Assembly (NCBI GenBank): GCA_017403825.1
Contig: JAFRDO010000051.1
Coordinates: 1-43,646 of the forward strand
Source of the DNA: Kiritimatiellia bacterium
GTDB taxonomy: Bacteria; Verrucomicrobiota; Kiritimatiellia; RFP12; UBA1067
Direction of reading: 5' to 3'
DNA: 43,646 nucleotides
This document shows positions 4,432 to 43,458 of this stretch, piece after piece (the first letter of the stretch is position 1; the number at the start of each line of letters is the position of its first letter). Under the pieces are notes generated by a model. It was not told where the DNA came from. It did no database searches and was given only the letters and a program-made list of their open reading frames with translations. The translations under genes and the position numbers were made by a program.

Positions 4432-4436
4432 GTAAA

Positions 4437-4607
4437 ATCGTCTATCGTCAAGTCCGCGAAGTCGGTTGCGTCCTTCGCATCAGGGCGGTGATGACGGACG
4501 CGGTCGGCGGCAACACGGCAGTTGGCTTCGTCATTGCGGAGCTGGATGGCGGCGGCTGCCGCATTGAGTCGGAAGACGGCTCGATGTGGGCCGAGTGGCA
4601 TTTATAG
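4437..4607 (+). other. Possible remnant of a gene 3' end in the 395-base gap before hicB
   Basis: Immediately after the InlB-repeat stop, a frame without its own plausible start reads through about 56 codons to TAG at 4605-4607 and ends MWAEWHL. Its composition is protein-like, but no family is recognised; it may be the tail of a gene whose 5' part was lost. The rest of the gap (4608-4789) contains no credible gene; only the short palindrome CATATATG at 4703-4710 stands out. Confidence 0.25.
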
Positions 4608-11762: not shown

Positions 11763-13049
11763 CTACCGCAGCCCAGCGGTACAGACGACGCGGAAACCAG
11801 CGATGTCGAGGCGGTTGTCTGCTGGTATCTCGGCACGATACGCCGATCGACAGTCTCCTGCGTTGCGTTTCCAACACCCACCCCGAACCACGCGGTTTCC
11901 GCCCGACTGCCCAGACAGCGTCTCCGCAGGGGTTGAGGGATTGATGTTCACCATGCCGTCGTACGCTGTGATGTTGGCCTCACTCCAGTCGAGACACCAT
12001 TCAAACACATTGCCGTGCATGTCATAGATGTCCCAGTCGTTCGGAGCGTACGAGCCGACGACCGCCGTGCCGGCCTCCGCCCCGCCGTTGTTAATGTACC
12101 GCCCTAGCAAGTTCAGGTTTTCGTCAGTGTTTGCGTTCATGACGGCAGAGCCGTCGCCCCACTTCGTGCTGCCATTGCCAGCGCGGGCGGCGAACTCCCA
12201 CTGTGCCTCAGAAGGCAGATCGAAAACGATTCCTGTCTTCGTGTGCAACTTGCCAAGGAAAGAGTTGGTGTTTGGGTCGGCAGGCCAGTTGTGCGAGGTG
12301 TCAGCCGTCGTGGAGTTGTTGGAGTTGCGGATTTCGTTATAGCACACTTTTTCCACAGGTCGCATCGCGTGCTTAAAGCTGGATGGCGAGAGGTAGCTTG
12401 GCTGGATCAAATCCCATTGAGCCTGTGTCACTGGATACACGCCAATATAGTAGTTGTTCGTGAGCGTGACCTGATGAGTGGCCTCATTCCCGCCGCGTGA
12501 TGTCTCCTGCGCAGTCGAACCCATTGTCCACATCACGTCCTTTGCCATTATCTTGCGCATAAGGAGCATTGTCATCTTGTAGAGGTCGTTCGTCACGCCT
12601 CCCGGTACGAAGTCGGCCGAAGGGTAGTATTTCTGCGTATTCTGCTGGGCTCCATCGGACACATCTACCGCCATATAGTCGGGAGTGTTGTCGAGCGCCC
12701 ATGCCGTCACGACGGCGCGTATGCCGCTCATAGGAATCTGGTGGTCGGCCCAGCAGGTCGTCGCGTTCCACCTGATCCTGTGCGAGCCGGTCGCGACCAC
12801 CTTCCACACGTCGCCCTGTGCGCCTGAGACGGCCGGTCCGCCGATGGACGCCCATGCTCCGCCTGTCGCGTTCGTCTGTATGTCGAGCGTGATGACGGCA
12901 CTGGCCGCAGAAAGGTTGTAGTTGATTATGGCGTCGCCGTTGGCGTTTTGCGACATGCTCACGTCCGACACTTGCGGAGCGGGCACGCTGGCGCAGAGAG
13001 AAAGGGCGGCTCCAGCCGTCGCAATCGTAAGAATGGCCTTGCAGTTCAT
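11763..13049 (-). CDS. Secreted Ig-like/SUMF (formylglycine-generating-enzyme-like) protein
   Basis: 428 residues from ATG 13049 (AAAGGAA upstream); signal peptide MNCKAILTIATAGAALSLCA. Residues about 20-125 form an Ig-like domain shared with three paralogues at the right end of the window. About 150-425 are a SUMF1/FGE fold: WTMGSTAQETSRGGNEATHQ, LPSEAQWEFAARAG, DMHGNVFEWCLDW and a final RVVRGGCWKRNAGDCRSAYR. True FGEs need two cysteines close to a GGS motif in that last segment; here the cysteines are spaced differently (GGC...DCRS), so sulfatase-activating activity is doubtful. A binding or lectin-like role is inferred. It follows a small secreted protein gene after 32 bases. Confidence 0.85.
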   Translation of the reverse strand: MNCKAILTIATAGAALSLCASVPAPQVSDVSMSQNANGDAIINYNLSAASAVITLDIQTNATGGAWASIGGPAVSGAQGDVWKVVATGSHRIRWNATTCWADHQIPMSGIRAVVTAWALDNTPDYMAVDVSDGAQQNTQKYYPSADFVPGGVTNDLYKMTMLLMRKIMAKDVMWTMGSTAQETSRGGNEATHQVTLTNNYYIGVYPVTQAQWDLIQPSYLSPSSFKHAMRPVEKVCYNEIRNSNNSTTADTSHNWPADPNTNSFLGKLHTKTGIVFDLPSEAQWEFAARAGNGSTKWGDGSAVMNANTDENLNLLGRYINNGGAEAGTAVVGSYAPNDWDIYDMHGNVFEWCLDWSEANITAYDGMVNINPSTPAETLSGQSGGNRVVRGGCWKRNAGDCRSAYRAEIPADNRLDIAGFRVVCTAGLR

Positions 13050-13081
13050 TGTTTGGTTCCTTTTGGTGTTGTGTTGAAAGT

Positions 13082-13366
13082 TCAGTGAATGATGATGCAC
13101 ATTCCATGTATGGGGCATTCGCCGTCTGACACCGCCCACGTGAGATAGCGCGGCTCGATGTCGGCGGACGGCGACGCGCTTGCAGACACGGCGTCGGCGC
13201 CGGACATCGCCTCGGCAGTCTGATTATTGTACCAGAAGCGGTATTTGACGGTAACGCCGTCGCTTTCATATTGTATCTCGTTGCCGTAGACGTCCGTATC
13301 GGCGAATACGGCTGCCGCCGCAAGCGCTGCTGCGGCCGCGAGAATTGTTCCGCACAGTGTTCTCAT
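13082..13366 (-). CDS. Small secreted protein of unknown function preceding a SUMF gene
   Basis: 94 residues; the start ATG overlaps the upstream gene's stop as ATGA (13363-13366), with GAAAGGGAAA upstream. The signal peptide (MRTLCGTILAAAAALAAAAV) is a variant of the one on the GH20 and DUF1080 proteins. The mature part of about 70 residues has no family I recognise. It ends CPIHGMCIIIH, a short hydrophobic tail similar to the ends of three other proteins in the window. A second small secreted protein (40234-40464) also sits immediately before a SUMF gene, so the pairing looks meaningful. It may instead be a truncated relic of a larger protein. Confidence 0.65.
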   Translation of the reverse strand: MRTLCGTILAAAAALAAAAVFADTDVYGNEIQYESDGVTVKYRFWYNNQTAEAMSGADAVSASASPSADIEPRYLTWAVSDGECPIHGMCIIIH

Positions 13367-15504
13367 TTTGTTTCCCTTTCTCCTTTTGGATTGATTTCGA
13401 TTGTTTCCAGCGGCGCGAGGGTGCGCGTTTCGGCGCGGCCGTCGGCGTAGGTGATCTTGAGTTCCGACGGCTCGCGCCGCCAGTTGGAAGCAAAGCCGAT
13501 GCGCTCGCCCTTCGCATTCTCCCAGAACGACGTCAGAACCTCGGTTGTCTCGACGCTCCCCGATTCCCATCCCTCGTAATCGACCTTTGCAGGGCGCGAT
13601 TCGCATCTGACGAACGGACGTATCATCTTGCCTTCAAGCAGGAACGAAGGGTGTTTCTTCCTTATGGCGTTAAGTTTCTTCACAAGAGAAAGGAGGCCAT
13701 CACGCTCCGGGAACGCCTCGTTCCAGAGGGACGGCCATCCGCAGACGGCCTCGCCGCTGTCGTTGAGGACGAGCGAGAACATGTCGCCGTTGTGGAAGCC
13801 GCTCGTCCATCGCCAAAAGGCATCCATGCGCTTCTTCATTCCGCATTGATTGCCTGTGAAATTGCACATCCATTCGTGGAACACGAACGCCGAACCCGGA
13901 ACCGGCCGACCGAAGTACATAAGCCCCGGCATCGGCCTTACGTCGCTGTACGGAAGATATGGTACGTATGGGGTCGCCGCCGTCTGCTCGCAGCCGAACA
14001 CCATTCCGTTCCCCGCCTCGACGAGCCGCTTCTGCAGGGCGACCATCGCATCGACTGCCCACGCTCCGGGAATCGGCGGGTGATTGTGGTGCTTCGCGTA
14101 GCAGAGAAGCCACCCGCCGCCCATGTTCTGGTCGAAGAACTGGCTGTAGTCGATGCCGAAACGCGAGAGCTTCGCAGCTTCCGCCACAACTTCACCAACG
14201 CACCAGTCGTCCGCAAGGCACATGTCGTAACCGAGCTTCGTCGAGTCGAATCCGTTGAGGATGCATGTGGCAATCTGGCCTTTCGGCCCGCGCATCATGT
14301 GGCGGCCGAGATGTTCGTCCTCGAAACGCTGCTCCAGAGAGTACGACGGCACGATGGCGCTTATCTGCGTCCAGGCCGTGCCGGAGCAATAGACGCCCAA
14401 GAGATCGCCGCGCGCGTGGAGCGCATCGCGGAACTTGGCGAGCTCCTCTTCGCCGCCGAAAGGAGGCCACACGTAGGGCGGCGCCCAGGGTGCCGTTCCC
14501 TCCCAGTGCATCAGAAGCGCCATGATCCTTGAATTAAGCAGCTTTCCGTACTTCTCCACTATCGGCATTGCGTTGACATAGGGGAACAAACGGTTTGGCT
14601 TCATGTCCCGTCCGTGGTCGCGGCCGTATCCGCGGACGGGATAGATGAGATTGACGGGAGAATCATACATCCATTTCGGGCGGGTCGGCGTCTTCGCGAA
14701 TTCAGGCAGCGCACGCACCCAATCGCGATAGATTTCGCAGGCCTCCATCCAACCGCCTGCATAAGGACGGAGCGAATAGTGGAACTTCGGACGCCACGCG
14801 CCGTCTTTGTCCAGGTCGCCGCAGAAAGTCTGGAGCGTCAGCCGCACGGTCTTGCCGTCAACTTGTTCCCAGTCGACCGCTTTGGGCGTATGGCGGTCGT
14901 CAACGGCGGAGAAGTAGAGTCCGCATCCGTCCTTGTACGCCGCCATGAACTGCATCTGGGCAAGGCCGGGATAGAGCGAGTTTCCGCCGGGAGGGGCGAA
15001 CCGTTCCCTATATCCAACCGGACGATAATGATGCGCGAACTTCGTCACCTCGATTCCGTCCCATTCGGGCCAGAAGAGCTTCCTGTCCGGCGAAATGCAG
15101 ACCTGCGGGCCGTCGAACCATTCGAGGAGCATGCCGGCAGGGATGCCCTCTACGGAGGGTCTGAAGCGAAACTCGCCGTCGGCGGCGGTTATTTCCATCC
15201 GAACAACAAGACCGTTGCTGTGGTGCCACACGAGATGGCCACTGTCGCACGAAAAGGCGAAGCCGGTCGACTTGAGGCGCGTCGGTTCGCCCTTGCCGTC
15301 GAGAAACTGAAGGGTGAACGCTTCGGCTGCCGCGACGACGCGTTCAACGCCGTCAAGGGCGACGAGCGACTCGACCGCGCCGTTCGCATCGGCGAGCCGA
15401 AGCGTCGCCCCGCCGGACTTGAACTCAATAGACGCAGGCGCGGCGAAAGCGAACGCCGTCGCCAAGGCAAATGCAACCGATTTATGGCCAATCGTCCCCG
15501 TCAT
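13363..15504 (-). CDS. Secreted DUF6259-type glycoside-hydrolase-like protein
   Basis: 713 residues, first gene of the minus-strand operon. Residues 1-22 are a signal peptide. An N-terminal beta-sandwich (about 25-240) is followed by a TIM-barrel-like region with the motifs MALLMHWEGTAPWAPPYVWPP, FGIDYSQFFDQNMGGGW and GMVFGCEQTAATPY, then a C-terminal beta domain. The order and the FDQ / GCE acidic motifs resemble DUF6259 and the alpha-galactosidase-like GH36/GH101 relatives, so FDQN (Asp) and GCEQ (Glu) are the candidate catalytic residues; this is inference. The -10 hexamer ends 8 bases before the ATG, implying a leaderless transcript. Confidence 0.7.
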   Translation of the reverse strand: MTGTIGHKSVAFALATAFAFAAPASIEFKSGGATLRLADANGAVESLVALDGVERVVAAAEAFTLQFLDGKGEPTRLKSTGFAFSCDSGHLVWHHSNGLVVRMEITAADGEFRFRPSVEGIPAGMLLEWFDGPQVCISPDRKLFWPEWDGIEVTKFAHHYRPVGYRERFAPPGGNSLYPGLAQMQFMAAYKDGCGLYFSAVDDRHTPKAVDWEQVDGKTVRLTLQTFCGDLDKDGAWRPKFHYSLRPYAGGWMEACEIYRDWVRALPEFAKTPTRPKWMYDSPVNLIYPVRGYGRDHGRDMKPNRLFPYVNAMPIVEKYGKLLNSRIMALLMHWEGTAPWAPPYVWPPFGGEEELAKFRDALHARGDLLGVYCSGTAWTQISAIVPSYSLEQRFEDEHLGRHMMRGPKGQIATCILNGFDSTKLGYDMCLADDWCVGEVVAEAAKLSRFGIDYSQFFDQNMGGGWLLCYAKHHNHPPIPGAWAVDAMVALQKRLVEAGNGMVFGCEQTAATPYVPYLPYSDVRPMPGLMYFGRPVPGSAFVFHEWMCNFTGNQCGMKKRMDAFWRWTSGFHNGDMFSLVLNDSGEAVCGWPSLWNEAFPERDGLLSLVKKLNAIRKKHPSFLLEGKMIRPFVRCESRPAKVDYEGWESGSVETTEVLTSFWENAKGERIGFASNWRREPSELKITYADGRAETRTLAPLETIEINPKGERETK

Positions 15505-29779: not shown

Positions 29780-31693
29780 ATGCAAAAGTTGATGTGCGCA
29801 CGTGCAAGGCAGAATTGCAGTCGTATTTTGGTTTCACTGATTGTTGCGCTTAGCTGCGCAACGACATTCGGCGCAAGTGTCTGGCAGGATGCGTTGCTCT
29901 GGTTCAACGGCCCCGTCGATGCCAACAACGACGGCAAGTGGACCGGCAACGTCTCTGCCACCGACAGCGGCGTATCCGTTCCGCGCAAGTGCGACGGTAC
30001 GGGTGGTGCCACATGCGAAATGCCCGACGCTCGCCATGGCACCCTTGCATCGTCCAACACGCAGAAGCTGAACTACTCGACTGGCTCCGCGACTGTTTAC
30101 CAGCAGTCAGGCTTCCTAATCCGCACGAACGACGTCCACTTCACGGCATGGGGCAACAAGACCGCCGCGTGGCCCTGCCTGTATCTCCCGCAGGCCGCAA
30201 ACGGGGCTACCTGCTATGCCCAACGCTGGCAGATGTTCGACGGGGCAAAGCTCATTTCCGGCAACCAGTGGACCATCCTGTTCCGTTGCCGCATTGACGA
30301 CTATCTCCTGGAAGGAAACCCGGCTTGGGTCTGGTGCACGAAGACAGACACATCCAAAGGCGGTGCGGAAAAGGAAATCCGCATCGGTTTTGGCAGGAAT
30401 CCCAACAATGCGTCAGACACGAAAAACTATGTCAAGATATGCCTAGGCATAACCCAGCCCGCACTGATCGACCTTTGCGTCGAGACGAACGAATGGCTTG
30501 AAGTCGCCGTTGTCGTGGATGGCCGTGCCGAGGCGCACTCCATCCGCGCCTCGTTGGCGAGACCAAACGACGTTCGCTGGTATCGCGACTATACCGTTCC
30601 CTATGACCATGCGAACTACACCACAAACTTCTATCCGGGCAACGTCTGGCTTGGAGGTCCGCGCTATGGAGCCATAACCTCCAACAAAGACAACTTCCGT
30701 GGCGATGTCCAGATGTTCGCGATATGGAACCGGTGCCTTTCCGACCGCGAGGTCTGCGAGGCATTCGGCGGCGGTGCGCCCAACCGTTTCCGTCTCGGCG
30801 AAGAGGGATGCACAGCGGAGATGTACGGCGGCGCGGCTCCGGCGGCAGACACGACCGTCACGCTCGATCCGCTCGCCAGCGACAAGCGGTCGTTCCCGAC
30901 GACGCTTACGAAAGGAGCGACGTTCCGCATTCCGTTCTCGGTAGACAAGTATGCTGCCAACACGGCGCACTGGGTGCGCTTCAAGGCGCAGACAGGTTCC
31001 GCCTTCGGAACGATAGCCGTAGCCCTCGACGGCGTCGCCCTTGACCCGCTCGACGTCTCCTCCGGTAGCAACGCCTACATCTGGGTTCCCGGCGAGAAGT
31101 TCACAATTGGCGACCACGTGCTGACGCTCACGCGCATCGACAACGACGCCGGCAGTCTCGACTACGACGTGATCGAGCTTGGCGGCAACTGGCACGCTGG
31201 CATTGTGGACGGTAACGCCGGCGACGCGACTTCGGACAGCGTGAAGAACTCCGCGACATCCACCCACGCCCCCGACATCTGGTATCCCGACTCCCTCAAC
31301 CTAAAGGAGTTCGTTCGCTACGTCGGTCGCAACAAGAGCGGTACGCTGCATCGTGCCAAGACGATTGTCTGGAATCTGCCGCAGGGCGCGGCGGAGAAGT
31401 TTGGAATGCAGATGAGCTACAAGTGCCTCTACTACGGCGAGACGCCGCTCACTAACTCACTTGTGACAACCGTGAACGGCACCGTTGTGCATGAGAATAC
31501 TGATGTTCGCGGCAGCCTCGTCTCCTTCAAGATTGAGCCGGGGTCCGGTGTCTTTCGTGGTGGCGAGAACATGATTGTCCTTGACTTTGCTGAACCGACA
31601 CGCACCGACAGCAAGAACGACTGGATTACGCCGGATATGATTGCCATCGAGCCATTGAAACCGAAGAAGGGGTTGGCGATCATCTTTAAGTGA
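29780..31693 (+). CDS. Large secreted LamG-like carbohydrate-binding protein
   Basis: 637 residues; AAGGAG is 7 bases upstream. A long signal peptide spans about 1-33 (ILVSLIVALSCATTFGA). About 35-330 resemble a concanavalin/LamG beta-sandwich (NQWTILFRCRIDDYLL, NEWLEVAVVVDGRAEAHS, RGDVQMFAIWNRCLSDREVCEAFGG); the last phrase is typical of LamG domains. About 345-630 look like two more beta-sandwich modules (PFSVDKYAANTAHWVRFKAQ, LVSFKIEPGSGVFRGGENMIVLDFA). No catalytic signature is seen, so glycan binding is inferred. It ends KPKKGLAIIFK, one of the tails discussed separately. It is the first gene of the regulated hydrolase locus; GH97 follows after 25 bases. Confidence 0.75.
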   Translation: MQKLMCARARQNCSRILVSLIVALSCATTFGASVWQDALLWFNGPVDANNDGKWTGNVSATDSGVSVPRKCDGTGGATCEMPDARHGTLASSNTQKLNYSTGSATVYQQSGFLIRTNDVHFTAWGNKTAAWPCLYLPQAANGATCYAQRWQMFDGAKLISGNQWTILFRCRIDDYLLEGNPAWVWCTKTDTSKGGAEKEIRIGFGRNPNNASDTKNYVKICLGITQPALIDLCVETNEWLEVAVVVDGRAEAHSIRASLARPNDVRWYRDYTVPYDHANYTTNFYPGNVWLGGPRYGAITSNKDNFRGDVQMFAIWNRCLSDREVCEAFGGGAPNRFRLGEEGCTAEMYGGAAPAADTTVTLDPLASDKRSFPTTLTKGATFRIPFSVDKYAANTAHWVRFKAQTGSAFGTIAVALDGVALDPLDVSSGSNAYIWVPGEKFTIGDHVLTLTRIDNDAGSLDYDVIELGGNWHAGIVDGNAGDATSDSVKNSATSTHAPDIWYPDSLNLKEFVRYVGRNKSGTLHRAKTIVWNLPQGAAEKFGMQMSYKCLYYGETPLTNSLVTTVNGTVVHENTDVRGSLVSFKIEPGSGVFRGGENMIVLDFAEPTRTDSKNDWITPDMIAIEPLKPKKGLAIIFK

Positions 31694-33772: not shown

Positions 33773-36514
33773 ATGTCCAAGCGTGCCAAGATGATGCGCG
33801 TTCGGGAAATTTGTCTGACAGTTGCACTTGCGCTCTATGCCTCTGTATCGTTCGCAGGGGCTATTCCTCTTGAGCGCGAGGCGTGGGAGTGCGTCAATCC
33901 GCTCGGCGGCGACTTCACGAACGGCACGTACGTGAGCATGCACAGCGCGGCGCAGGGTTTCGAAATCGCGAAGGGTGTGCCGGTTTCGTCCAATGCCGTG
34001 GTCGAGGCGGCGTTTACCCCGGGGCGAGCAGATGGAACCGGTTTCAAGACTGCTGGCGTGTCGCTCTATGAAACGAACGGACGCTTCTGGCATCTCGCCC
34101 TCGTGGAGTCTCCCGCCAAGTACCGCTACTTTGAGCTTTCGGAAATGCGTGACGGGCGGTGGCTTGCGCACAAAGACCTCAGGGGCGAAATCAACGAAAA
34201 GCATGGCCAATGGAAGACGGGCGAGAAGTATCGTCTGCGTCTGGAGATGGATGGCAAAGGCGTGGAGGGGACTGCGCGCGGCGAAGACGGCAGGCTCGTC
34301 TTCCGTTGCCGCTTCGCGCTGAAGCCCGGCGCTGTTGGATGCGGACGCCCCGCCATCAAGTGTCATTCCCTAGCGGGCGTGTTTTCGGAGGTGCGGGTGG
34401 AGCATGGCGCGGCGGTCGCGACGGAGCGCGACCATCCCGCAGTGATTGCGGTCGCGGCGGAACGCAATCCTCCAACGGCCTTCTACCGCACGATACGCGA
34501 TGGCGAAGGTCGCTGGTGGTTCGTCGATCCGGACGGCAAGCGTTTCTTTCTGAACGGCATAGGCATGGTGAACCACGCAGGGCATCACAGCGCGGCGCTT
34601 GGCTACGCTCCGTACGCGAGGGCGGTGCAGAGAAAGTATCCGACTCTGGAGGACTGGGCAACGAACACGCTTGCGCGTCTCAAGTCGTGGGGCTTCAACA
34701 TGCTTTCTTCGGCGGCCAGCGAACTCTTGAGGCGCGGTATGCCCCATGCGGACGTGCTGGCGATGGGGCAGAGCTTCAGCGAATGCGGCGACGAGTTCGA
34801 CATACTGCCAGGTGACGGCGGACCGTGCGCCGGATTCCCTAACGTGTTCCATCCGAAGTGGGAGGTGTACTGCCGCTTCGTCGCCCGCAAGTGCGCGGCG
34901 AACAGGAATGACCGCTGGGTGCTTGGCTGGTACATAGACAACGAGCTTGCGTGGTGGGGCGACAGGCGGAAGTTCCGCGCGTCGCCGTCGCGCGGACTCT
35001 TCGACGCCTGCGCGCGCAAGTCACAGGGGCATACGGCGAGAAGGGCGCTTGACGCCTTTCTTAAGGAACGTGGCCTTTCCTCGCCGGAGGCGGCTGCGGA
35101 GGATGTCACGCGCGAGTTCGTTCGCCTCGTCGCCTGTCGCTATTTCGAGACGGCGACGCGTGCCATCCGCGAGGCCGACCCGAACCATCTGATTCTCGGT
35201 TGTCGTTTCGCCGGGTTGCCGACGAGCGATCCAGTCGTGTGGGAGGAGTGCGGACGGTTCTGCGATGTCGTATCCGTCAACACATACCCGCTCGTCGATC
35301 TCGACCGTGGCATCGCGCTGAACGGATTGGACAAGAAGGCGCGTCCTATCGCCGATGAAATCGCAGAACATGCAGCACTTGCCGGCAAGCCGCTGATAGT
35401 GACGGAATGGTCGTTTGTTGCGCTAGACTCGGGGCTTCCCTGCATGCATGGTGCGGGACAGCGCTTCTTCACGCAAAAGGAACGCGCTGAGGCGACGTCC
35501 ATACTGTCTCGTACGCTCTATGCGCTGCCGGGATGCGCGGGCTACGTCTACTTCATGTGGAGCGACCTGCCGAAGGTCGGCAAGCACGGCGAGAAGTCCG
35601 AGAACTGCAACTATGGCCTTGTTGACGCGAATGACGATCCGTGGCCCGAGCAGGTCGCAGCGCTTTCCGAAGTGCAGAACAACCCCGCGAAGTGGCGCTG
35701 CTCGCCGCTGCCGCCGGACAGGCCGGTCGTGAAGCCAACGGCAAGTGCGGTCGCAAGGGCTGCTGTTTGCCGGAATGCGCAGTGCCGGTTCAAACGCGGC
35801 GAAGACGGCGCGTTCGAACTTTCCAATGGTCTTGTCAGCCTTGCTGGGCGAATGGGCGGCGAGAACGTCTCTGTGGATGGCATGGGAATGTTCTCGCCGT
35901 CCATCCGAGAATACGCGCGCGGCAGCATGTGGTGGAGCAGTGCGCCGGAGGTGGTGGATGTGCGTGGCGGCGTGAAGGACGGACTTGGCGTCATGGAGGT
36001 CACCTTCCGGGGCAAGACGGCGACTGGCGCGTTCGAAATGGTTGAGAAATTTTATCTGCCGGAAGGAAGTCCATTCTTTTTGGTGGAGGTGTGCAGGATT
36101 GTTAACAGAGGTGAGCGTGCGCTTCCCGTCGATATGGCGTTCTTCCGCCTGGTGCCGCGTGACTGCGATGGCGTTAAGGTTGCAAAAGGCGATGATGCGC
36201 TTGAGCCGCCAAAGGAGGATCAGCCCACGCCCATTCCGCCGCAGCTGTGGCGTCCGTGGCGGGCAGCGGCGTGGGAATTGCCTGATGGAACATGCCTTGG
36301 CCTTGTCACGCCACACCGAACGGGCGTGGACGTAACCTTCTGGAAGGACAAGAACCTTCATCCTGACGCGTGTGTGCGTCTTTCGCGAACTGAGATTGCG
36401 CCCGGTGGGTCGTTTGAGGTGCCGGACCATCCGTTTGTGGCGGGAGCGTGCTGTCCGTCCGGAGCGGACGCTTGGCACAGGGTCTGTGCAGCATTTAGGG
36501 AATGCGTAAGGTGA
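33773..36514 (+). CDS. Secreted clan GH-A glycoside hydrolase (GH50-like)
   Basis: 913 residues with a signal peptide (about 10-28). About 30-215 form a LamG/DUF1080-like beta-sandwich (YETNGRFWHLALVESPAKYR, KYRLRLEMDGKGVEGTARG). About 235-650 are a TIM barrel starting GRWWFVDPDGKRFFLNGIGM; WVLGWYIDNELAWWG supplies the likely acid/base Glu, CDVVSVNTYP is typical of the clan, and PLIVTEWSFVALD supplies the likely nucleophile Glu. About 680-910 are a further beta-rich domain. The pattern is closest, from memory, to GH50 beta-agarases and GH5-type relatives; the substrate is a beta-linked, probably galactose-containing polymer by inference from the GH97 neighbour. The sigma gene follows 54 bases later. 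Confidence 0.8.
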   Translation: MSKRAKMMRVREICLTVALALYASVSFAGAIPLEREAWECVNPLGGDFTNGTYVSMHSAAQGFEIAKGVPVSSNAVVEAAFTPGRADGTGFKTAGVSLYETNGRFWHLALVESPAKYRYFELSEMRDGRWLAHKDLRGEINEKHGQWKTGEKYRLRLEMDGKGVEGTARGEDGRLVFRCRFALKPGAVGCGRPAIKCHSLAGVFSEVRVEHGAAVATERDHPAVIAVAAERNPPTAFYRTIRDGEGRWWFVDPDGKRFFLNGIGMVNHAGHHSAALGYAPYARAVQRKYPTLEDWATNTLARLKSWGFNMLSSAASELLRRGMPHADVLAMGQSFSECGDEFDILPGDGGPCAGFPNVFHPKWEVYCRFVARKCAANRNDRWVLGWYIDNELAWWGDRRKFRASPSRGLFDACARKSQGHTARRALDAFLKERGLSSPEAAAEDVTREFVRLVACRYFETATRAIREADPNHLILGCRFAGLPTSDPVVWEECGRFCDVVSVNTYPLVDLDRGIALNGLDKKARPIADEIAEHAALAGKPLIVTEWSFVALDSGLPCMHGAGQRFFTQKERAEATSILSRTLYALPGCAGYVYFMWSDLPKVGKHGEKSENCNYGLVDANDDPWPEQVAALSEVQNNPAKWRCSPLPPDRPVVKPTASAVARAAVCRNAQCRFKRGEDGAFELSNGLVSLAGRMGGENVSVDGMGMFSPSIREYARGSMWWSSAPEVVDVRGGVKDGLGVMEVTFRGKTATGAFEMVEKFYLPEGSPFFLVEVCRIVNRGERALPVDMAFFRLVPRDCDGVKVAKGDDALEPPKEDQPTPIPPQLWRPWRAAAWELPDGTCLGLVTPHRTGVDVTFWKDKNLHPDACVRLSRTEIAPGGSFEVPDHPFVAGACCPSGADAWHRVCAAFRECVR

Positions 36515-36553
36515 CAACCAATTGCCTTCGAACCACTTGCCCCATTTATGCAT

Positions 36554-36559
36554 TATATT
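36554..36559 (+). promoter_or_regulatory. -10 element of the ECF sigma gene
   Basis: TATATT at 36554-36559, ten bases before ATG 36569. No TGn extension and no clear -35 at the right distance, so this is the weakest member of the promoter set. A binding-site-less start fits a leaderless transcript. Confidence 0.35.
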
Positions 36560-36568
36560 AATGGGGAC

Positions 36569-37468
36569 ATGAAGTCCAACGATACAGTAGAGGAAATACG
36601 CAAAGACCGAAAGGCTGGTGCGGCAAGGCTCGTTGCGGAGTACAGGAATCGCCTGTATGACGTGGCGTGCAGCGTATGTGGCGATTCGGTAGAGGCGGAA
36701 GATCTGGTGTTCCGAACGTTTGAACAAGTCATAGCGAAAATTGGCGAGTATCGTGAGGAAGAGGCGTTTTTTGCTTGGATGTGCACGATTCTGCGCAACT
36801 ACTATCGCATGTCTATTCGCGGCAACGTGACCAGGAATACGGTTCCTTCCGGTGGTTTGGATGAATTGGCCGGAATCTCTGGTGAAGTAGGTGACGAGGA
36901 TATAGCCAAGGCGTTGGACGGGGACATCCTGCGCAAGGCTGTCGATGAGTTGCCGCCGAAGTTGCGCGAGACCGTAGTCCTTCACTATTTCATGGATCAG
37001 CCGGTGCGCAAAGTCGCCAAGATGCTGTCCGTCTCTGATGGAACTGTCAAGTCTCGTCTCTATTACGCGCGTGTGGTGTTGGGGACCAGGCTTTGCGCCG
37101 CTGTGAAGAAGCCGACTGTGGCATTGGTCTTCGCCGTTCTTTTTGTCGTTGCCGCAGTTTCGGCTGTCTCGTTTGCCGTTTTCGCCCCTCCGCAGGTTGC
37201 GGAGGTGGATGAGCCAGTGTTCCTCAACGATGCTCCGCTAGAAGAAGACGCCGATATGCTGGAGTCGTGGGGGGGCGTGCCGATGGTACCGGTCAATTCT
37301 GCGGCCGTCACGAAGGCGGGTACGTCTTCCGGAGCGCCCGAGCCTAGGCGCTCGGCAAAGACGGCGATCATACCTGCGTTTCGGTCGGATGGAAAGGATT
37401 CGCGAAAAGTTCCCGTTCCCTCGTTCAATTCGGTCCCGAACAGTGTGAAGGTCATAATATCCCGTTAG
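36569..37468 (+). CDS. ECF-type sigma factor with transmembrane helix and secreted C-terminal tail
   Basis: 299 residues from ATG 36569 (an in-frame ATG at 36548 would overlap the -10). About 10-85 are sigma region 2 (RLVAEYRNRLYDVACSVCGD, AEDLVFRTFEQVIAKIGEY, FFAWMCTILRNYYRM). About 125-180 are region 4 (ELPPKLRETVVLHYFMDQPV, KMLSVSDGTVKSRLYYARV). Then comes one transmembrane helix (VALVFAVLFVVAAVSAVSFAVF, about 191-212) and about 85 residues outside, ending FNSVPNSVKVIISR. The extracytoplasmic part could act as a built-in sensor, replacing a separate anti-sigma factor; none is encoded nearby. Its C-terminus resembles that of the small secreted protein at 40234. A SUMF gene starts 5 bases after the stop, implying a shared mRNA. 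Confidence 0.85.
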   Translation: MKSNDTVEEIRKDRKAGAARLVAEYRNRLYDVACSVCGDSVEAEDLVFRTFEQVIAKIGEYREEEAFFAWMCTILRNYYRMSIRGNVTRNTVPSGGLDELAGISGEVGDEDIAKALDGDILRKAVDELPPKLRETVVLHYFMDQPVRKVAKMLSVSDGTVKSRLYYARVVLGTRLCAAVKKPTVALVFAVLFVVAAVSAVSFAVFAPPQVAEVDEPVFLNDAPLEEDADMLESWGGVPMVPVNSAAVTKAGTSSGAPEPRRSAKTAIIPAFRSDGKDSRKVPVPSFNSVPNSVKVIISR

Positions 37469-37473
37469 CCGTA

Positions 37474-38700
37474 ATGCCGATGCGCAAGGAGAATGCCAGA
37501 TCATTGCTGATGATTGCGACGATGGCCGCGGCGGTCGCGGAAGCCGCAGCCCTTCCGCAGTTGACGCATGTTCGCGTATCCCAGGATGCCGTGACGCAGT
37601 GCGTCACAGTGGATTACGCCTTGGACGCCCCTGCAATCGTGACGCTCGACGTGCTGACTAACGGCGTCTCGATCGGCGCGGCGAACGTCACTTGCGCATA
37701 CGGCGACGTAAACCGTCTCGTAGGCGGTGGAGCTCACAGGCTGTGCTGGCCTGCGGCGAAGAGCTGGCCGGGCTTCAGGTTCTCCGACGACACCGTTTCG
37801 GTGGAGGTGTCGGCGTGGGCGCCCGACTTGCCGCCGGACTACATGGTCGTTGACCTTGTCGTGAACAAGGGCGAGCGTACTTGGTACGTCGCGGCAGATC
37901 AGCTGCCGGGCGGCGGCCTTCAGAACGACAAGTACAAGACCGACTACCTCGTGATGCGCCGCATCCCCGCCGAGGGCAGGACCTTCCGCATGGGGTCGCC
38001 TGGCGATGAGCCGGGCCGCAAGCAGAACGAGACGCTCCACTACGTGACGCTCACCAATGACTTCTATATGTCCGTCTTCGAGCTTACGCAGGGACAGTAC
38101 AAGAACGTGGTCGGAGAGCTGAACCCGCTCAACACGAAGTACGGGTTTGACGCAGTCCGTCCGCTCGACTGGCTTGTGTACGACAGGTTTCGCGGGACAA
38201 CAAAGCAGTGGCCGCAGGCCGGACATGAAGTGGAGTCCGGCTCTCCAATGGACGTGTTCCGATCTGTGCTGAAAATGCCGTCTCTCGACCTGCCGACGGA
38301 GGCGGAGTGGGAGTTCGCCTGCCGAGCAGGCACGCTGTCGGCCAGATACGACGGCACGGACTTCCCTGCGTCGGCGGCCGGCATTGCGTGGCTCGGCGAA
38401 GGTAGGGTCCGCCCTCATGCAGTCGGGCTGCTCAAACCGAACGGCTACGGGCTGTACGACATGTACGGCAATGTAGACGAGTATTGTCTCGACTATTATG
38501 CTGACGACCATACATACGTGGCGGTTGGATCTACCGTGGTCGCGCCACAGGGGCCCGCGAACGGGACGGAGCGCGTTATTCGCGGTACTGGGTCGTGGTG
38601 GTCGGCAAAGGGTGACAATGCACGTTCGGCGTTCCGTCAGTCGTACACGGCATCGGGGCCGTGGATGTGCGTAGGGTATCGGCTGATCTGCCGGCCTTAA
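37474..38700 (+). CDS. Secreted Ig-like/SUMF protein 1 (after the sigma gene)
   Basis: 408 residues; start ATG 37474 or 37480, five bases after the sigma stop and lacking a good binding site, so translational coupling is likely. The signal peptide runs to about 28. The Ig-like domain (about 30-125) includes DVLTNGVSIGAANVTCAYGDV, near-identical to its paralogues. The SUMF domain (about 150-405) has FRMGSPGDEPGRKQNETLHY, LPTEAEWEFACRAGT, GLYDMYGNVDEYCLDYY and a final RVIRGTGSWWSAKGDNARSA. The last segment has no cysteine pair near the GS motif, so formylglycine-generating activity is not expected. Probably a surface binding protein, by inference. Confidence 0.85.
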   Translation: MPMRKENARSLLMIATMAAAVAEAAALPQLTHVRVSQDAVTQCVTVDYALDAPAIVTLDVLTNGVSIGAANVTCAYGDVNRLVGGGAHRLCWPAAKSWPGFRFSDDTVSVEVSAWAPDLPPDYMVVDLVVNKGERTWYVAADQLPGGGLQNDKYKTDYLVMRRIPAEGRTFRMGSPGDEPGRKQNETLHYVTLTNDFYMSVFELTQGQYKNVVGELNPLNTKYGFDAVRPLDWLVYDRFRGTTKQWPQAGHEVESGSPMDVFRSVLKMPSLDLPTEAEWEFACRAGTLSARYDGTDFPASAAGIAWLGEGRVRPHAVGLLKPNGYGLYDMYGNVDEYCLDYYADDHTYVAVGSTVVAPQGPANGTERVIRGTGSWWSAKGDNARSAFRQSYTASGPWMCVGYRLICRP

Positions 38701-38708
38701 GGGGGGGG
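38701..38708 (+). repeat. Run of eight G forming the ribosome binding site of the metallophosphatase gene
   Basis: GGGGGGGG directly follows the SUMF TAA stop and ends two bases before the ATG at 38711. It is the only Shine-Dalgarno candidate; its length would change the spacing to the start codon. Confidence 0.8.
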
Positions 38709-38710
38709 AT

Positions 38711-40198
38711 ATGGACAGAACGGAGACTTCAATCGGTTTCAGCATGGAAAGGCGCGGATTCTTGAAAGGGGCGGGAGCGTGTGCCGTTCTTGGAGCCCCC
38801 GGCATCTTCTCGAAAAAGAAAGAGAAGGCAGAGCTGACTCTTGGCGTTATCTCCGACACCCATATCGGCACGCTGGCGTCAGCTGTGACTCTTGAACGGA
38901 CTCTCGCGTTCTTCCGCGACCGTAAGGTGGACGCTGTCATGATCTGCGGCGACTTGGCGGACTGGGGGCTTCTTAGCGGACTCAAGTACGTTGCCGAGAC
39001 GTGGGAAAAAGTGTTCCCGCACGGCAAGGGTGCCGGCGGCAGGCCGGTTCAGAAGCTCTTCTGCACGGGCAATCACGATTACGAGGGCTGGTGGTATGGA
39101 GACATGACTGCCGAGATGCACGCGCTCGGCTATGACGAGGATGAGGCGCTTGTGAAGCTCGGCATGAAGAAGTGCTGGGAGGAGGTGTTCCAGGAGGAGT
39201 TCGATGCCATACGCAAGCGGACGGTGAATGGATTTGACTTCATCAGCGCGGAATGGACCGGCTACGACAATGCGCCGGGCTATGACAGGACTGCCGACTG
39301 GTTCAAGATGCATGGCGGCGAAATCGATCCTTCCAAGCCGTTTTTCTTCTACCTCCACCAACCTCCGGCCGGGACGACCTCGGGCAGCTGGGAGACTAAG
39401 TTTGCGAGGATGCAGACTGATTCGCTTATGCCTTACCCGAACGCTGTGGCGTTCTCGGGCCACACGCACTGGACTCTGAATGACGAGCGCTCCATCTGGC
39501 AGGGGGCGTTCACCGCCGTCTCGGTTCCTTCTCTCTCCTGCACTGGCGTGATGGACGGATATGAGAACGGCGCGGACGTGCGCAATGGAACGACGACGCG
39601 TGCGATGCCTATGATTCCAGCCCGCTTCCGCATGGAGGAGCCGCAGGGACTAGTGGTGTCGGTCTATCGCGACAGGATGGAGATGGAGCGTTACGACTTC
39701 AAGAAGTTCGTCCACACGGCACCGACGTGGAACGTTCCGCTGCCGCTTGCGGACTCCGCTCGCCCATATGCATTCTCCGCGCATTCGGCTCGGATTCCCG
39801 TGCCGGAGTTTCCGTCCAGGGCTCGGCTTTCGCTTTTCACGCGCAACACGGAGACGCGCGGTGGGAAGTGGCAGATCGTGATGGTGGCAGGCTTTCCGTC
39901 TGCGAAAGGCGTGCCGGAGGCGCGTGCGTTCGACTACGAGCTGCGCGCCGTGCTGGTGGACGGCTCGGTGGCGACGTGCAAGCGATTCCTCTCTCCGGCA
40001 TTCCACAAGCTGAAGGAGGACGAGCCGGACCGCATGACGTTCTGGCTGAATGTTCTCGACCTGCCGCAGGACGTGGAGTACCACATCGAGGTCTATCCGC
40101 GCAACTGCTTCGGCGTGTGCGGCAGGCCGCTCGTGTCCGCACCGCGTCGCGGCAAGCCGGGCGGCGCCCATGCGCGCGGCTATCCGAAAAAGGCGTAA
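38711..40198 (+). CDS. Tat-exported calcineurin-like metallophosphoesterase
   Basis: 495 residues. A Tat-type signal is visible at about 12-34 (MERRGFLKGAGACAVLGAPG). About 43-330 are a calcineurin-like phosphoesterase with the full metal set: GVISDTHIG (Asp and His), ICGDLADWG, CTGNHDYEG, HQPPAG and FSGHTHWTL. About 360-480 are a beta-rich C-terminal domain. It should cleave phosphomono- or diesters outside the cytoplasm using two metal ions. It lies between two SUMF genes, 10 bases after the first; only a poly-G run precedes the start. The substrate is unknown; acting on a phosphorylated glycan would fit the locus but is inference. Confidence 0.88.
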   Translation: MDRTETSIGFSMERRGFLKGAGACAVLGAPGIFSKKKEKAELTLGVISDTHIGTLASAVTLERTLAFFRDRKVDAVMICGDLADWGLLSGLKYVAETWEKVFPHGKGAGGRPVQKLFCTGNHDYEGWWYGDMTAEMHALGYDEDEALVKLGMKKCWEEVFQEEFDAIRKRTVNGFDFISAEWTGYDNAPGYDRTADWFKMHGGEIDPSKPFFFYLHQPPAGTTSGSWETKFARMQTDSLMPYPNAVAFSGHTHWTLNDERSIWQGAFTAVSVPSLSCTGVMDGYENGADVRNGTTTRAMPMIPARFRMEEPQGLVVSVYRDRMEMERYDFKKFVHTAPTWNVPLPLADSARPYAFSAHSARIPVPEFPSRARLSLFTRNTETRGGKWQIVMVAGFPSAKGVPEARAFDYELRAVLVDGSVATCKRFLSPAFHKLKEDEPDRMTFWLNVLDLPQDVEYHIEVYPRNCFGVCGRPLVSAPRRGKPGGAHARGYPKKA

Positions 40199-40233
40199 TT
40201 TATAAACTGCAAAATGAAAGGAAACATGAACGT

Positions 40234-40464
40234 ATGAAAATGAAACTATTACTCGTGTCTGTGGTGACGCTGCTGACAACGGCGCCGCTAGAGGCCGAGA
40301 ACGTAAACGGCTTCGAGAACTTCGTGCTGTCGCGGAACGACTTCAAGTCGACCCAGTCAAGCACCATTGCCAACTTCTCGTCCCGGACGCGCATGACGAT
40401 TTCGCCTACGCTGGTTCATTTCAATTCGTACAAGCCGTCCGGCGCCATCATCACGATCCGCTGA
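40234..40464 (+). CDS. Small secreted protein preceding the second SUMF gene
   Basis: 76 residues from ATG 40234 (or 40240). Signal peptide MKMKLLLVSVVTLLTTAPLEA, then about 54 residues rich in S, N and T, ending FNSYKPSGAIITIR. The last 34 residues align without gaps to the end of the ECF sigma factor, with nine identities including FNS and the final R. A four-codon frame ATGAACGTATGA (40226-40237), better spaced from AAAGGAAA, overlaps its start and may couple translation. The next SUMF gene starts 19 bases downstream. No known family is recognised. Confidence 0.65.
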   Translation: MKMKLLLVSVVTLLTTAPLEAENVNGFENFVLSRNDFKSTQSSTIANFSSRTRMTISPTLVHFNSYKPSGAIITIR

Positions 40465-40483
40465 CAGAAAGGGGAGTGCCGTA

Positions 40484-41779
40484 ATGAGAAAATCACTAGC
40501 TTGCATCACCGCCGCCTGTGCGGTGTTGGCTGCGCTTGCCGATCCGAACGACCCTCAGATCACGCTTGTCGGCAGCAACCAGGGCTTTGACCGCGTCGTG
40601 ACTGTCCGATACACGCTGGACGAGCCGGCCATCGTCACGTTTGACGTGAAGACCAACGGCGTCTCGATCGGCGCGGAGAACCTCAAGCTTGCATACGGCG
40701 ACGTGCACCGCGTGGTCGCCGCCACGGGACAGGGAGAGACCCGCACTCTTTTCTGGCCTGCCCATGAGGCATGGCCGGATCATCGGTTTGGTGAAAACGT
40801 CGTGTCCGTAGAGGTGACGGCGTGGGCGACCAACTCGCCGCCGGACTACATGGTGATAAAGCTCGTCGGCGAAGACAAGGGCGCGCGCACGTTCTACACT
40901 GCGCCTGAACAGCTGCCGGGCGTCGGCGGAGTCACGAACGACATGTACAAGACCGACTACCTCGTCATGCGCCGCATTCCTGCCGCTGGTGCTACCTTCC
41001 GCATGGGCGCACCAGCTGATGAACCAGGCCGCCATGGTAGTGAAACGCTCCACTACGTCACGCTCACCAACGACTTCTACATGGCGGTGTTTGAATTGAC
41101 TGTGGGTCAATTCAAGAACATCGTGCAGAACTTCACCGACGTGGCAAGCGGCTTGAGTGCGTACAGCAGCAGCAAGTTGTGCGTTTCGACCGAGACCCCG
41201 AATTGTCCTGTAGATTGTTTCGGGTGTGACGTATTTCGCGGTACTGGAAAACTCTGGCCAGGCGACGGTCATGACGTTGACGCTGCGTCTCCGCTGGCGA
41301 TGTTCCGCATTGCGCTTGGGCTGCGGACGCTTGATTTGCCAACGGACGCAGAATGGGAGTTCGCCTGCCGTGCTGGCACCATGTCCGGACGCTATGACGG
41401 CACTGAATATGTTGCGGCGAACGATGCTGGCGCCGCTCTGCTCGGTTGGTTTGGGAGCAGCTGGTCATCTCGTCCACAGGCAGTCGGGCTTCTCAAGCCA
41501 AATGGCTATGGACTATATGATCTGTATGGAAATGTCTTCGAATGGTGCCTTGACAGATTCACCTGGTACACGGCATCCACCGGCTCTACGCTTTTGGCGC
41601 CGGTTGGCCCCGCCAATTCCGATACTGGCGCGGAACGTGTTGTCCGCGGGGATCGTTCCAATGCCAACGGAAGTGGAAAGAATGGGCGATCCGGCTTCAG
41701 GTACAACATGGAGTACGCCTATGTCGCAACCGATGTCTGGGGCTACGTGTGTGGCTATCGGCTTGTCTGCACCTTTTAA
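40484..41779 (+). CDS. Secreted Ig-like/SUMF protein 2
   Basis: 431 residues; GGGGAG 7-8 bases before ATG. Signal peptide to about 20 (MRKSLACITAACAVLAALA). The Ig-like domain (about 22-125) has VTVRYTLDEPAIVTFDVKTNG. The SUMF domain (about 150-430) has FRMGAPADEPGRHGSETLHYV, LPTDAEWEFACRAGTMSGRY, NGYGLYDLYGNVFEWCLDR and an asparagine-rich RVVRGDRSNANGSGKNGRSG segment where an FGE would carry its catalytic cysteines; none is present. Nucleotide words such as AACGGCGTCTCGATCGGCG are shared with SUMF 1, showing recent duplication. It is separated by 29 bases from SUMF 3. Confidence 0.87.
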   Translation: MRKSLACITAACAVLAALADPNDPQITLVGSNQGFDRVVTVRYTLDEPAIVTFDVKTNGVSIGAENLKLAYGDVHRVVAATGQGETRTLFWPAHEAWPDHRFGENVVSVEVTAWATNSPPDYMVIKLVGEDKGARTFYTAPEQLPGVGGVTNDMYKTDYLVMRRIPAAGATFRMGAPADEPGRHGSETLHYVTLTNDFYMAVFELTVGQFKNIVQNFTDVASGLSAYSSSKLCVSTETPNCPVDCFGCDVFRGTGKLWPGDGHDVDAASPLAMFRIALGLRTLDLPTDAEWEFACRAGTMSGRYDGTEYVAANDAGAALLGWFGSSWSSRPQAVGLLKPNGYGLYDLYGNVFEWCLDRFTWYTASTGSTLLAPVGPANSDTGAERVVRGDRSNANGSGKNGRSGFRYNMEYAYVATDVWGYVCGYRLVCTF

Positions 41780-41808
41780 TCAAGCGCATCGAGAAAGGAG
41801 ATTTCAAA

Positions 41809-43245
41809 ATGAACAGCAAGTTGTCTTTGGGCCTTTTTGCCGTGCTTGCGGCAATGGCGGTGTTCGCCGATCCGACGGTTACGAACGTAAGCGTTTCGCA
41901 AGATCCCCTCACTCATCTTGTGACGGCAACGTATCAGCTTGACGAACCTGCGGTTATCACCTTTGATGTGAAGACTAACGGAGTATCCATTGGTGGCGCG
42001 AACCTCACCCACGCTTTCGGCGATGTTCATCGCGTTGTTGATGCTGGACCCCACACGCTATATTGGCAGTCAGACAACGCCTGGCAGGAATATCATCGTT
42101 TTGCATCTGTGGATTTTTCGGTGGTTGCATGGGCGACCAACGCGCCGCCAGATTACATGGTTGTCAAACTCCTCGGAAACCATAAGGGAGAACGCACCTA
42201 CTACATAGCCCCCGAACAGTTTCCGGGCGAAGGTGGCATCACGAATAAGATGTACAAGACCGATTTCCTTGTCATGCGTCGTATCCCCGCCAAGGATGCC
42301 ATCTTCCCGATGGGATATAATGCGGCTGCGGAATACCAATACTGCCTGTACCATCGCGTGAAGCTCACGAACGATTTCTACATGGCCGTTTACGAACTGA
42401 CGCTCGGTCAGATGAAGAACGCGATAGGAGAATCCCCTGCCAATCTGGTGACCTATTACAACTATACCTCTTTCCCTGAGGAATACAAGGCGTATACGAA
42501 CAACTTGGCGAACCCGCTCCCTGAAACGCCGTATTACAAGTTTAGGGGCTACACCGGGTCGCTATGGGGCGGGAACTTCAACCACGAGATTGCCGATACG
42601 GGTTCCTATCTCTATCAGTTGCGCAACGCGCTAAATCTCCCATCTCTCGACCTGCCAACGGATGCTGAATGGGAGTTTGCCTGTCGTGCCGGTACGGCTG
42701 CGAACCGCTATGACGGGACGTGGAGTTATGATGTTTCGGCGGACGCCATCGCGTGGACGGCGAATAATTCCACGAGATTTGAGCTTTGGGGCTACTACTA
42801 CTATCTGCCGCACGAAGTGGGATTGCTGAGACCTAATGCATTCGGCCTTTACGACACACTTGGCAACGTCAGTGAAATGTGTCTCGACCTGTACAACGAA
42901 GGGACTGCCTACACAGAGGGTGCCGTCATCAACGACATGAATGCCGAGCCGATTGTGGCGCCGACAGGGCCGGTGATGGATATTGCGGGCAAATATGACG
43001 GGTGTTCGCGCGGCAGTTACTCCAGTTACACTAAGGGTGGCCTTTGGGCCGAATGGAAAAGCGGAGAGGGCGACACGAACTCTACGTGTCGGGTGGCGCG
43101 TGGCGGAAACGTCTCCTATACTGGTTGGGGCATCATGGCATACTATCGCTTCCCCATCGGGTCGAGCAAGTGCATGACGGAATGCGCCGACTACAATCAC
43201 GACACGCGCGGTCCCTACGGCTATCGTCTCGTCTGCCTGCCATAA
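41809..43245 (+). CDS. Secreted Ig-like/SUMF protein 3
   Basis: 478 residues; GAAAGGAG 8 bases upstream of ATG 41809. Signal peptide MNSKLSLGLFAVLAAMAVFA. Ig-like domain about 22-125 (VTATYQLDEPAVITFDVKTNG). The SUMF domain (about 150-475) has LPTDAEWEFACRAGTAANRY and AFGLYDTLGNVSEMCLDLYN; it is longer than the paralogues because of tyrosine- and asparagine-rich insertions in the middle and before the final RVARGGNVSYTGWGIMAYYR. Again no catalytic cysteine pair at the FGE position. It is the last gene before the hairpin terminator at 43284. Confidence 0.87.
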   Translation: MNSKLSLGLFAVLAAMAVFADPTVTNVSVSQDPLTHLVTATYQLDEPAVITFDVKTNGVSIGGANLTHAFGDVHRVVDAGPHTLYWQSDNAWQEYHRFASVDFSVVAWATNAPPDYMVVKLLGNHKGERTYYIAPEQFPGEGGITNKMYKTDFLVMRRIPAKDAIFPMGYNAAAEYQYCLYHRVKLTNDFYMAVYELTLGQMKNAIGESPANLVTYYNYTSFPEEYKAYTNNLANPLPETPYYKFRGYTGSLWGGNFNHEIADTGSYLYQLRNALNLPSLDLPTDAEWEFACRAGTAANRYDGTWSYDVSADAIAWTANNSTRFELWGYYYYLPHEVGLLRPNAFGLYDTLGNVSEMCLDLYNEGTAYTEGAVINDMNAEPIVAPTGPVMDIAGKYDGCSRGSYSSYTKGGLWAEWKSGEGDTNSTCRVARGGNVSYTGWGIMAYYRFPIGSSKCMTECADYNHDTRGPYGYRLVCLP

Positions 43246-43283
43246 CGCCTTTTGCTGACGCGAAGGCGGATTCAGTGGGAGGG

Positions 43284-43306
43284 GAGGGGCGAAAGTCTCG
43301 CCCCTC
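43284..43306 (+). terminator. Hairpin terminator after the SUMF cluster
   Basis: A perfect 9-bp stem GAGGGGCGA / TCGCCCCTC with loop AAGTC, 38 bases after the last SUMF stop, followed by an AT-rich stretch (TTGAATATATTTAA) rather than a strict T-run. Confidence 0.75.
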
Positions 43307-43458
43307 TTGAATATATTTAACCTCTTTCTTCGTATAGCTCTTCTCGTACGGCTCTCCTCGTGATTCCGGAAGCGCAATAGCGCCGGAGAATAGTGTTGGA
43401 GGAGTTGGCGAACTTGATCCAAATATGTCGGTGTCATTGTTGTATTTCGTTGACACCG

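Follow-up and report, generated by a model that had tools for sequence, protein, structure and literature searches.

The available text of two papers (PMC8999054, PMC9249621) describes IutY of Pseudomonas putida as a hybrid of a sigma factor, a transmembrane (TM) segment and a FecR-like part that is cut by the proteases Prc and RseP. By analogy, IutY is the closest studied relative, in working principle, of the extracytoplasmic function (ECF) sigma factor described here, which is encoded on a 43,646-nucleotide contig of a Kiritimatiellia bacterium (JAFRDO010000051.1; the whole contig is referred to below as the window) and is followed by genes for three SUMF-domain proteins. Like IutY (group ECF243), this protein appears to be a single polypeptide in which one TM segment joins an ECF sigma domain to a periplasmic part, and it likely needs proteolysis to become active. 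IutY contains a FecR-like domain and responds to a siderophore receptor, whereas the system described here is marked by a C-terminal tag common to several proteins, a payload that is optional, and neighbouring SUMF genes; no FecR-like domain was matched in the window sigma by Pfam at E≤1, and its predicted ectodomain is only about 95 residues long.

Other described systems share single features with this locus. The ECF48, ECF52 and ECF53 sigma-zinc-finger-TM fusions (e.g. SCO4117) also hold sigma, TM segment and outer domain in one chain; the window sigma differs in having no zinc-finger match in Pfam (a zinc-finger-like segment was seen by eye in one related fusion, L105), and the accessible descriptions of those groups mention neither a common C-terminal tag nor an internal start. 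Dma, as far as its abridged description goes, is an anti-sigma/TM protein with a long outer part ending in a C-terminal beta-barrel and occurs solely in Bacteroidota; it can be compared with the anti-sigma arm found here (L050, L307-L311), whereas the protein in the window, a sigma factor, has an ectodomain of about 95 residues and a tag of about nine, a difference judged by length only. The SUMF proteins share the SUMF-domain fold with FGE/SUMF, PvdO and GldK/PorK, and differ from FGE/SUMF in that the cysteine pair is out of its presumed place, in an extra N-terminal region, and in sharing an operon with a tagged small protein and a sigma factor. In-frame internal starts with a shared stop are described, in the part of the source available, for phage endolysin genes that produce two polypeptides (PMC9430671); in the present genes, by contrast, the longer product would be a regulator and the shorter has its own signal-peptide-like start, the two products being predicted. 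A review of ECF regulation states, in its accessible portion, that many C-terminal extensions remain unstudied (PMC8103513). No description of the sigma-tag-SUMF arrangement was found among open-licence papers judged by titles and the beginnings of abstracts; in the literature searched it is a variant of membrane-tethered ECF signalling not previously described.

Our preferred reading, held tentatively and at a little below an even chance, is that the operon's one-protein ECF sigma factor, which bears the shared C-terminal tag and is predicted to be anchored in the inner membrane, senses the handling of tagged surface proteins and, once cut free, transcribes the SUMF genes that follow it. The features of the operon are as follows.

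36569-37468 (+): ECF sigma factor gene, 299 amino acids (aa) (Pfam regions 2 and 4, hydropathy, aligned relatives)
37118-37174 (+): predicted TM helix, sigma residues 184-202 (hydropathy)
37202-37216 (+): EVDEP motif, sigma residues 212-216, just beyond the TM helix (invariant in 27 alignment rows)
37364-37465 (+): sigma C-terminal tag, the 34 terminal residues, with two F-x-S repeats and a final Arg
37474-38700 (+): SUMF 1 gene, predicted secreted (PF03781, 97.1 bits, residues 168-405)
38711-40198 (+): calcineurin-like metallophosphatase with a twin-arginine translocation (Tat) signal (PF00149, 47.2 bits; TIGR01409, 18.0 against a cut-off of 16.7)
40234-40464 (+): small protein, predicted secreted, 76 aa, tagged (relatives; tag score 11.1 by position weight matrix [PWM])
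40360-40461 (+): small-protein C-terminal tag, the 34 terminal residues (PWM, relatives, tail comparison)
40484-41779 (+): SUMF 2 gene, predicted secreted
41809-43245 (+): SUMF 3 gene, predicted secreted (PF03781, 69.5 bits)
43282-43308 (+): terminator-like hairpin at the operon end (11-pair stem)

The sigma open reading frame (ORF) can be read from 36548; the start at 36569 was chosen because the closest relative, P0041, begins MKSND. Residues 21-85 match Sigma70_r2 (PF04542, 37.7 bits) and residues 120-168 match Sigma70_r4_2 (PF08281, 42.8 bits), both above cut-off, and TIGR02937 is matched at 79.7 against a cut-off of 42.9. By sequence, the protein is an ECF sigma factor, having sigma-70 regions 2 and 4 only. 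A single hydrophobic helix lies at about residues 184-202 (hydropathy peak 2.78), in a hydrophobic stretch that is conserved among relatives, and a structure model places a helix at 182-205 at low overall confidence (predicted local distance difference test [pLDDT] 54.9). The presence of both a sigma domain and a TM segment in the protein predicts a membrane-tethered, fused ECF sigma factor. This anatomy is as originally predicted except for the outer part, which comes to about 95 residues after the helix rather than 85.

The list of sigma relatives contains 27 proteins of 49-88% identity; 26 were aligned with the window sigma to give 27 rows, with P0052 (261 aa) omitted and P0068-P0075 excluded. 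Invariant positions include EVDEP after the TM helix, Ser288 of the last F-x-S and the final Arg299, so that the Ser and final Arg of the tag are kept in 26/26 aligned relatives, while the segment from EVDEP to the tag is the least conserved part of the alignment. Among the excluded proteins, P0071-P0073 and P0075 are longer tagged forms, and P0074 links part of a sigma factor to a SUMF-like start. The gene order sigma-SUMF-phosphatase recurs in L198, from the rumen metagenome-assembled genome (MAG) RUG11810 (the phosphatase identified by eye from its C-terminus), and sigma followed by SUMF in L202.

The tag was first noticed as a gap-free match between the last 34 residues of the sigma factor and of the small protein, with nine identities. 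This match holds up (BLOSUM62 score 19, reached by 9 of 20,000 shuffles) and is confirmed as one case of a larger pattern, for which family-level comparison offers stronger evidence than the pairwise comparison of tails. The small protein has 38 listed relatives besides itself, one of them from a Kiritimatiellae MAG; their conserved part runs from NVNGFENFVLSRND to F-S/N-S-x-K-P-x-G, with a final Arg in nearly all rows. Searches of the small protein gave a single sub-threshold match in Pfam (E 0.16) and none in NCBIfam.

In the genome from which the window comes, the tag lies beside SUMF genes at every array examined. Using a PWM of the final nine residues, trained solely on relatives' proteins, a same-strand neighbour or member scores at least 0 in 17/17 SUMF arrays, compared to 16/131 control genes; at a score of at least 5, the figures are 12/17 and 9/131. 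The 17 arrays were delimited by hand, and neither the C68 match nor the SUMF fragments of C59 and C90 are among them; for L040, one ORF (7474-7800) counts for both arrays, and the upstream ORF that belongs to the first array itself (4107-4571) scores 0.3. In 400 kb of control sequence, eight ORF ends score at least 7, and seven of these end ORFs of 765-1297 residues. In a second genus, scored with a PWM trained on own-genus tails and none of its own, a tagged partner occurs in 18 of 20 SUMF regions (a selection of the SUMF matches), made up of 16 small proteins, one 629-residue protein and one tag-SUMF fusion; the two regions without one, L293 and L296, are cut by the contig end on their 5' side. 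The background at this threshold is 22 of 2543 control ORF ends. The proposal that the tail occurs both fused to sigma factors and free beside SUMF genes is borne out by these counts, and the likely basis is that one ORF can yield both a sigma-linked and a free form (see below).

The tag is not limited to such neighbours. It occurs on sigma factors, anti-sigma factors and free proteins predicted to be secreted, and ends two SUMF proteins themselves (L037:2808-4247 [-] and L280:4603-6096 [-]). A strict DNA pattern for the tag gave 27 matches in 57 genomes of the family, located in 10 of the 57, compared to two for the reversed pattern; 20 of the 27 end frames of at least 434 residues, and at least four of those are sigma fusions. 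Beyond the family, 14 matches in 181 genomes of the class equal the 14 of the reversed control, which suggests that the strict tag is restricted to the family. Sorting signals of the PEP-CTERM or LPXTG kind consist of a motif followed by a TM helix and a basic end; in this tag, only about six hydrophobic residues precede the end. Since the tag ends long proteins and fusions that lack a SUMF neighbour, its last nine or so residues probably do something more general than serve SUMF proteins.

A sigma search across the family turned up many ORFs that are longer but begin with the same sigma and TM part. Ten fused proteins were compared to Pfam: the outer part of L104 has a strong glycine-rich match, matches below cut-off were to DUF5123 in L106, CBM_35 in L084 and a cyclase in L091, and the remainder have no match beyond sigma or zf-HC2. 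A separate anti-sigma form, L050, matches zf-HC2 at 21.3 bits, just under the cut-off of 22.2. A set of 37 fusions was compiled from an initial 37 ORFs by removing the window sigma, four untagged cyclase-like proteins (L091, L092, L093 and L096, with L204 treated likewise) and three over-long frames with the sigma at the C-terminal end (L098, L113 and L118), and by adding L045, L050, L199-L203 and L205. The cyclase-like proteins (L091, L092, L093, L096 and L204), in which sigma and TM are fused to a squalene-hopene-cyclase-like domain, form a separate group of fused sigma factors (in L091, PF13243 scores 24.5 bits, below the cut-off of 26.1).

Whether a SUMF gene follows depends on the length of the protein. 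Adding the window sigma and L198 to the 37 fusions gives 39 sigma- or anti-sigma-TM proteins, themselves a selection among the matches listed. A SUMF gene lies directly downstream of 8/8 short proteins (≤476 residues), compared to 0/24 long fusions (≥634 residues with at least 1 kb of downstream sequence); two of the 24, L082 and L086, have no recognisable tag. The comparison omits L083, L087 and L108 (cut by contig edges), L090, L112 and L201 (less than 1 kb downstream) and L097. The last is a direct sigma-TM-SUMF fusion, with the SUMF domain in cis. In L094, the SUMF match begins 603 nucleotides (nt) downstream, but about 36 nt separate the protein from the start of the SUMF open frame. The five anti-sigma forms found later, all tagged, follow the same rule (short 3/3, long 0/2). 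The expected co-occurrence of tail and downstream SUMF gene is thus found in the short forms and fails in the long ones. These proteins read as one module, regulator-TM-payload-tag, in which the payload is either fused in cis or supplied by the next gene, and docking of a SUMF protein on the short ectodomain is plausible through this rule. A further frame, L176:2-925 (+) in genome G034, is open at its 5' end, ends GGGAGFMLILK (score 10.2), precedes a SUMF pair and shares its contig with a nearby sigma match; it looks like another short anti-sigma form and stands outside these counts.

The 37 fusions have a second feature. In 34 of them, an in-frame start codon 15-140 residues past the TM helix opens a signal-peptide-like segment (L082, L090 and L200 have no candidate), and four of the five later anti-sigma forms also show one by eye. 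A Shine-Dalgarno sequence of at least 4 nt at a spacing of 4-11 precedes 33/34 of these internal starts, compared to 50/448 other in-frame ATGs of the same ORFs; for at least 6 nt, the figures are 13/34 and 6/448. Per ORF, the start with the best Shine-Dalgarno sequence among the signal-peptide-like candidates was taken, a choice that favours the result. One fusion gene may therefore make both a sigma-linked and a free secreted protein. No internal start was seen in the window sigma and its aligned relatives, which keep only TM helix, EVDEP, linker and tag. A wider proposal follows this line: surface-protein genes of the family would include, in frame, a sigma or anti-sigma factor of their own, one ORF giving a free tagged protein from the internal start and a tethered twin from the full frame, with a family-wide tag reporting export and assembly of the product and SUMF as the same payload in trans, amounting to a new class of envelope signalling. 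We consider this, on balance, somewhat unlikely.

The original prediction took the tail to be a specific ligand or docking peptide recognised by SUMF proteins, forming a surface self-recognition circuit. The tagged neighbours at 17/17 and 18/20 arrays speak for this idea, as does the SUMF gene that follows all 11 short tagged sigma and anti-sigma proteins examined. The specificity it requires is not supported: the tag is also found at the end of long proteins and of long sigma fusions with no SUMF neighbour, including those in SUMF-poor genomes such as G044, which has two PF03781 matches but 15 sigma matches and nine strict tag matches; it is even fused onto SUMF proteins (L037, L280); and three of the four SUMF places in G022 and G034 lack a tagged neighbour. 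As an exclusive SUMF ligand, the tail is set back by G044, G047, G053 and the untagged SUMF places of G022 and G034, and we regard this explanation as unlikely.

Under our preferred reading, in which the sigma factor senses the handling of tagged proteins, the SUMF protein encoded by the gene that follows would dock on the short ectodomain, tail and SUMF together standing in for a fused payload. In the fused genes, translation from the internal start would yield the surface protein in free form, and translation of the whole frame its sigma-linked twin. The last nine or so residues would be a sorting or assembly tag, read by a machine in the periplasm or outer membrane; failure or completion of the reading step would leave the tail open to cleavage by a C-terminal protease, with a site-2 protease acting next and the sigma factor being released, as described for IutY with Prc and RseP. 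The outer topology of the sigma tail and the regulation of the sigma factor's own operon are parts of this mechanism that we infer. If true, a single polypeptide would link the cell surface to RNA polymerase, and one gene or operon would encode both the sensor and the protein that it senses. The lineage has received little study and is represented here by metagenome assemblies, from the rumen among other sources. The tag would predict an additional sorting or assembly machine in the family, and the cis/trans rule would give a rationale for the dozens of SUMF genes with no assigned role.

Several observations weigh against this reading. The less close sigma relatives P0068-P0070 (54-55% identity across two thirds) end untagged, and in G022 and G034, which belong to the same genus and have more distant SUMF proteins, a tagged neighbour was found within about 1.5 kb at one of four SUMF places. 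The genome of the window contains no match to the strict pattern of the tag, which is a short and variable sequence, and the sigma tail has no confidently predicted structure, the model pLDDT of 54.9 being too low for use. The counts cover related sequences rather than independent events. Unusually, the signal peptide of a full-length fusion would have to cross the membrane without being cleaved. Matches to M50 proteases (5/5 genomes) and S41 proteases (4/5) say little because control genomes match too (14/14 and 10/14, respectively). A tag-reading machine was not found: a query for the translocon of the type IX secretion system, SprA, matched in 0/5 genomes, and as its positive control matched nowhere either, this search is uninformative. 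Upstream of 17 of the genome's own genes, no shared promoter motif exceeded the null (one crude gapped-word count with hand-set starts); autoregulation is thus unsupported.

The tail could instead be a signal for a C-terminal protease of the Prc/Ctp type, setting the lifetime of the sigma factor and tagged proteins without acting as a sorting tag. The S41 matches in 4/5 genomes are in keeping with this, and the periplasmic part of IutY is, in the available text, cut by Prc and then RseP (PMC8999054, PMC9249621). Such a role would mean that long, apparently stable surface-type proteins all bear a degradation signal. Prc prefers nonpolar ends, whereas the final residue of the tag is mostly Arg, Lys or His. 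We find this explanation quite unlikely.

An explanation with no sensing at all is that sigma genes lost their stop codons in front of surface-protein genes, the fusion being tolerated since the downstream start still works, and that the tag is a structural last beta-strand. It would account for the retained signal-peptide-like start and Shine-Dalgarno sequence of the downstream gene, and for a tag on unlike payloads. It accounts poorly for a frame kept open through TM helix, linker and payload in many paralogues of several genomes, for the cis/trans rule, and for the window sigma, which has no internal start and yet carries a tag conserved in 26/26 aligned relatives. We consider it decidedly unlikely.

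A diversity-generating retroelement (DGR), a kind of element whose reverse transcriptases carry an SQ motif, with the SUMF arrays as its variable proteins, is hardly credible and was rejected: identity to SUMF 1 is 59% for SUMF 2 and 51% for SUMF 3, no near-identical variable block was seen by eye, and neither of the two reverse transcriptases in the genome (90.8% complete) has the SQ motif, no search for template repeats having been made. These reverse transcriptases are L278 and L279, one of which appears retron-like by eye and lies between gyrase-like and sigma54-activator-like genes.

SUMF 1 has a signal-peptide-like start and an N-terminal region without a Pfam match, followed by the SUMF domain. 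The fold of SUMF 2 is FGE/PvdO-like in a fold search, with matching rows that span mainly residues 129-431. The genome contains 37 PF03781 matches. The SUMF proteins of the operon had been called inactive-looking, and this is upheld by inspection: in the region between the RG and GYRL motifs, which we take to be the position of the FGE active-site cysteine pair, the pair is absent from SUMF 1 and SUMF 2, and SUMF 3 has a C-x3-C at a different place.

The gene order of the operon agrees with that first proposed, from the SUMF 1 start 5 bases past the sigma stop, through the Tat phosphatase, small secreted protein and two further SUMF genes, to a terminator-like hairpin. No Shine-Dalgarno sequence was seen directly before SUMF 1, in contrast to SUMF 2, SUMF 3 and the small-protein gene; given this and the 5-base gap, SUMF 1 is probably translated by coupling to the sigma gene. 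Hairpin-like sites in the region number six, compared to a shuffle mean of 8.7, so they are rarer than expected and the hairpin alone is weak evidence of termination.

Upstream of the sigma gene, a 913-residue, secreted-looking protein without a Pfam match (33773-36514 [+]) stops 54 bases before it and may share its transcript. A perfect 7-bp inverted repeat, CCCCATT/AATGGGG, spans the sigma ribosome-binding region (36540-36566); none was seen by eye upstream of the sigma relative in L198. The same module occurs again on the other strand of the window (11763-13606 [-]), as a further SUMF gene and its own tag-ending neighbour.

11763-13049 (-): fourth SUMF gene of the window, same SUMF family (sequence match)
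13082-13606 (-): tag-ending ORF just upstream of the fourth SUMF gene (ends IHGMCIIIH, score 2.8, start uncertain)

A 637-residue ORF elsewhere in the window (29780-31693 [+]) has a signal-peptide-like start and ends KPKKGLAIIFK, with a tag score of 8.3.

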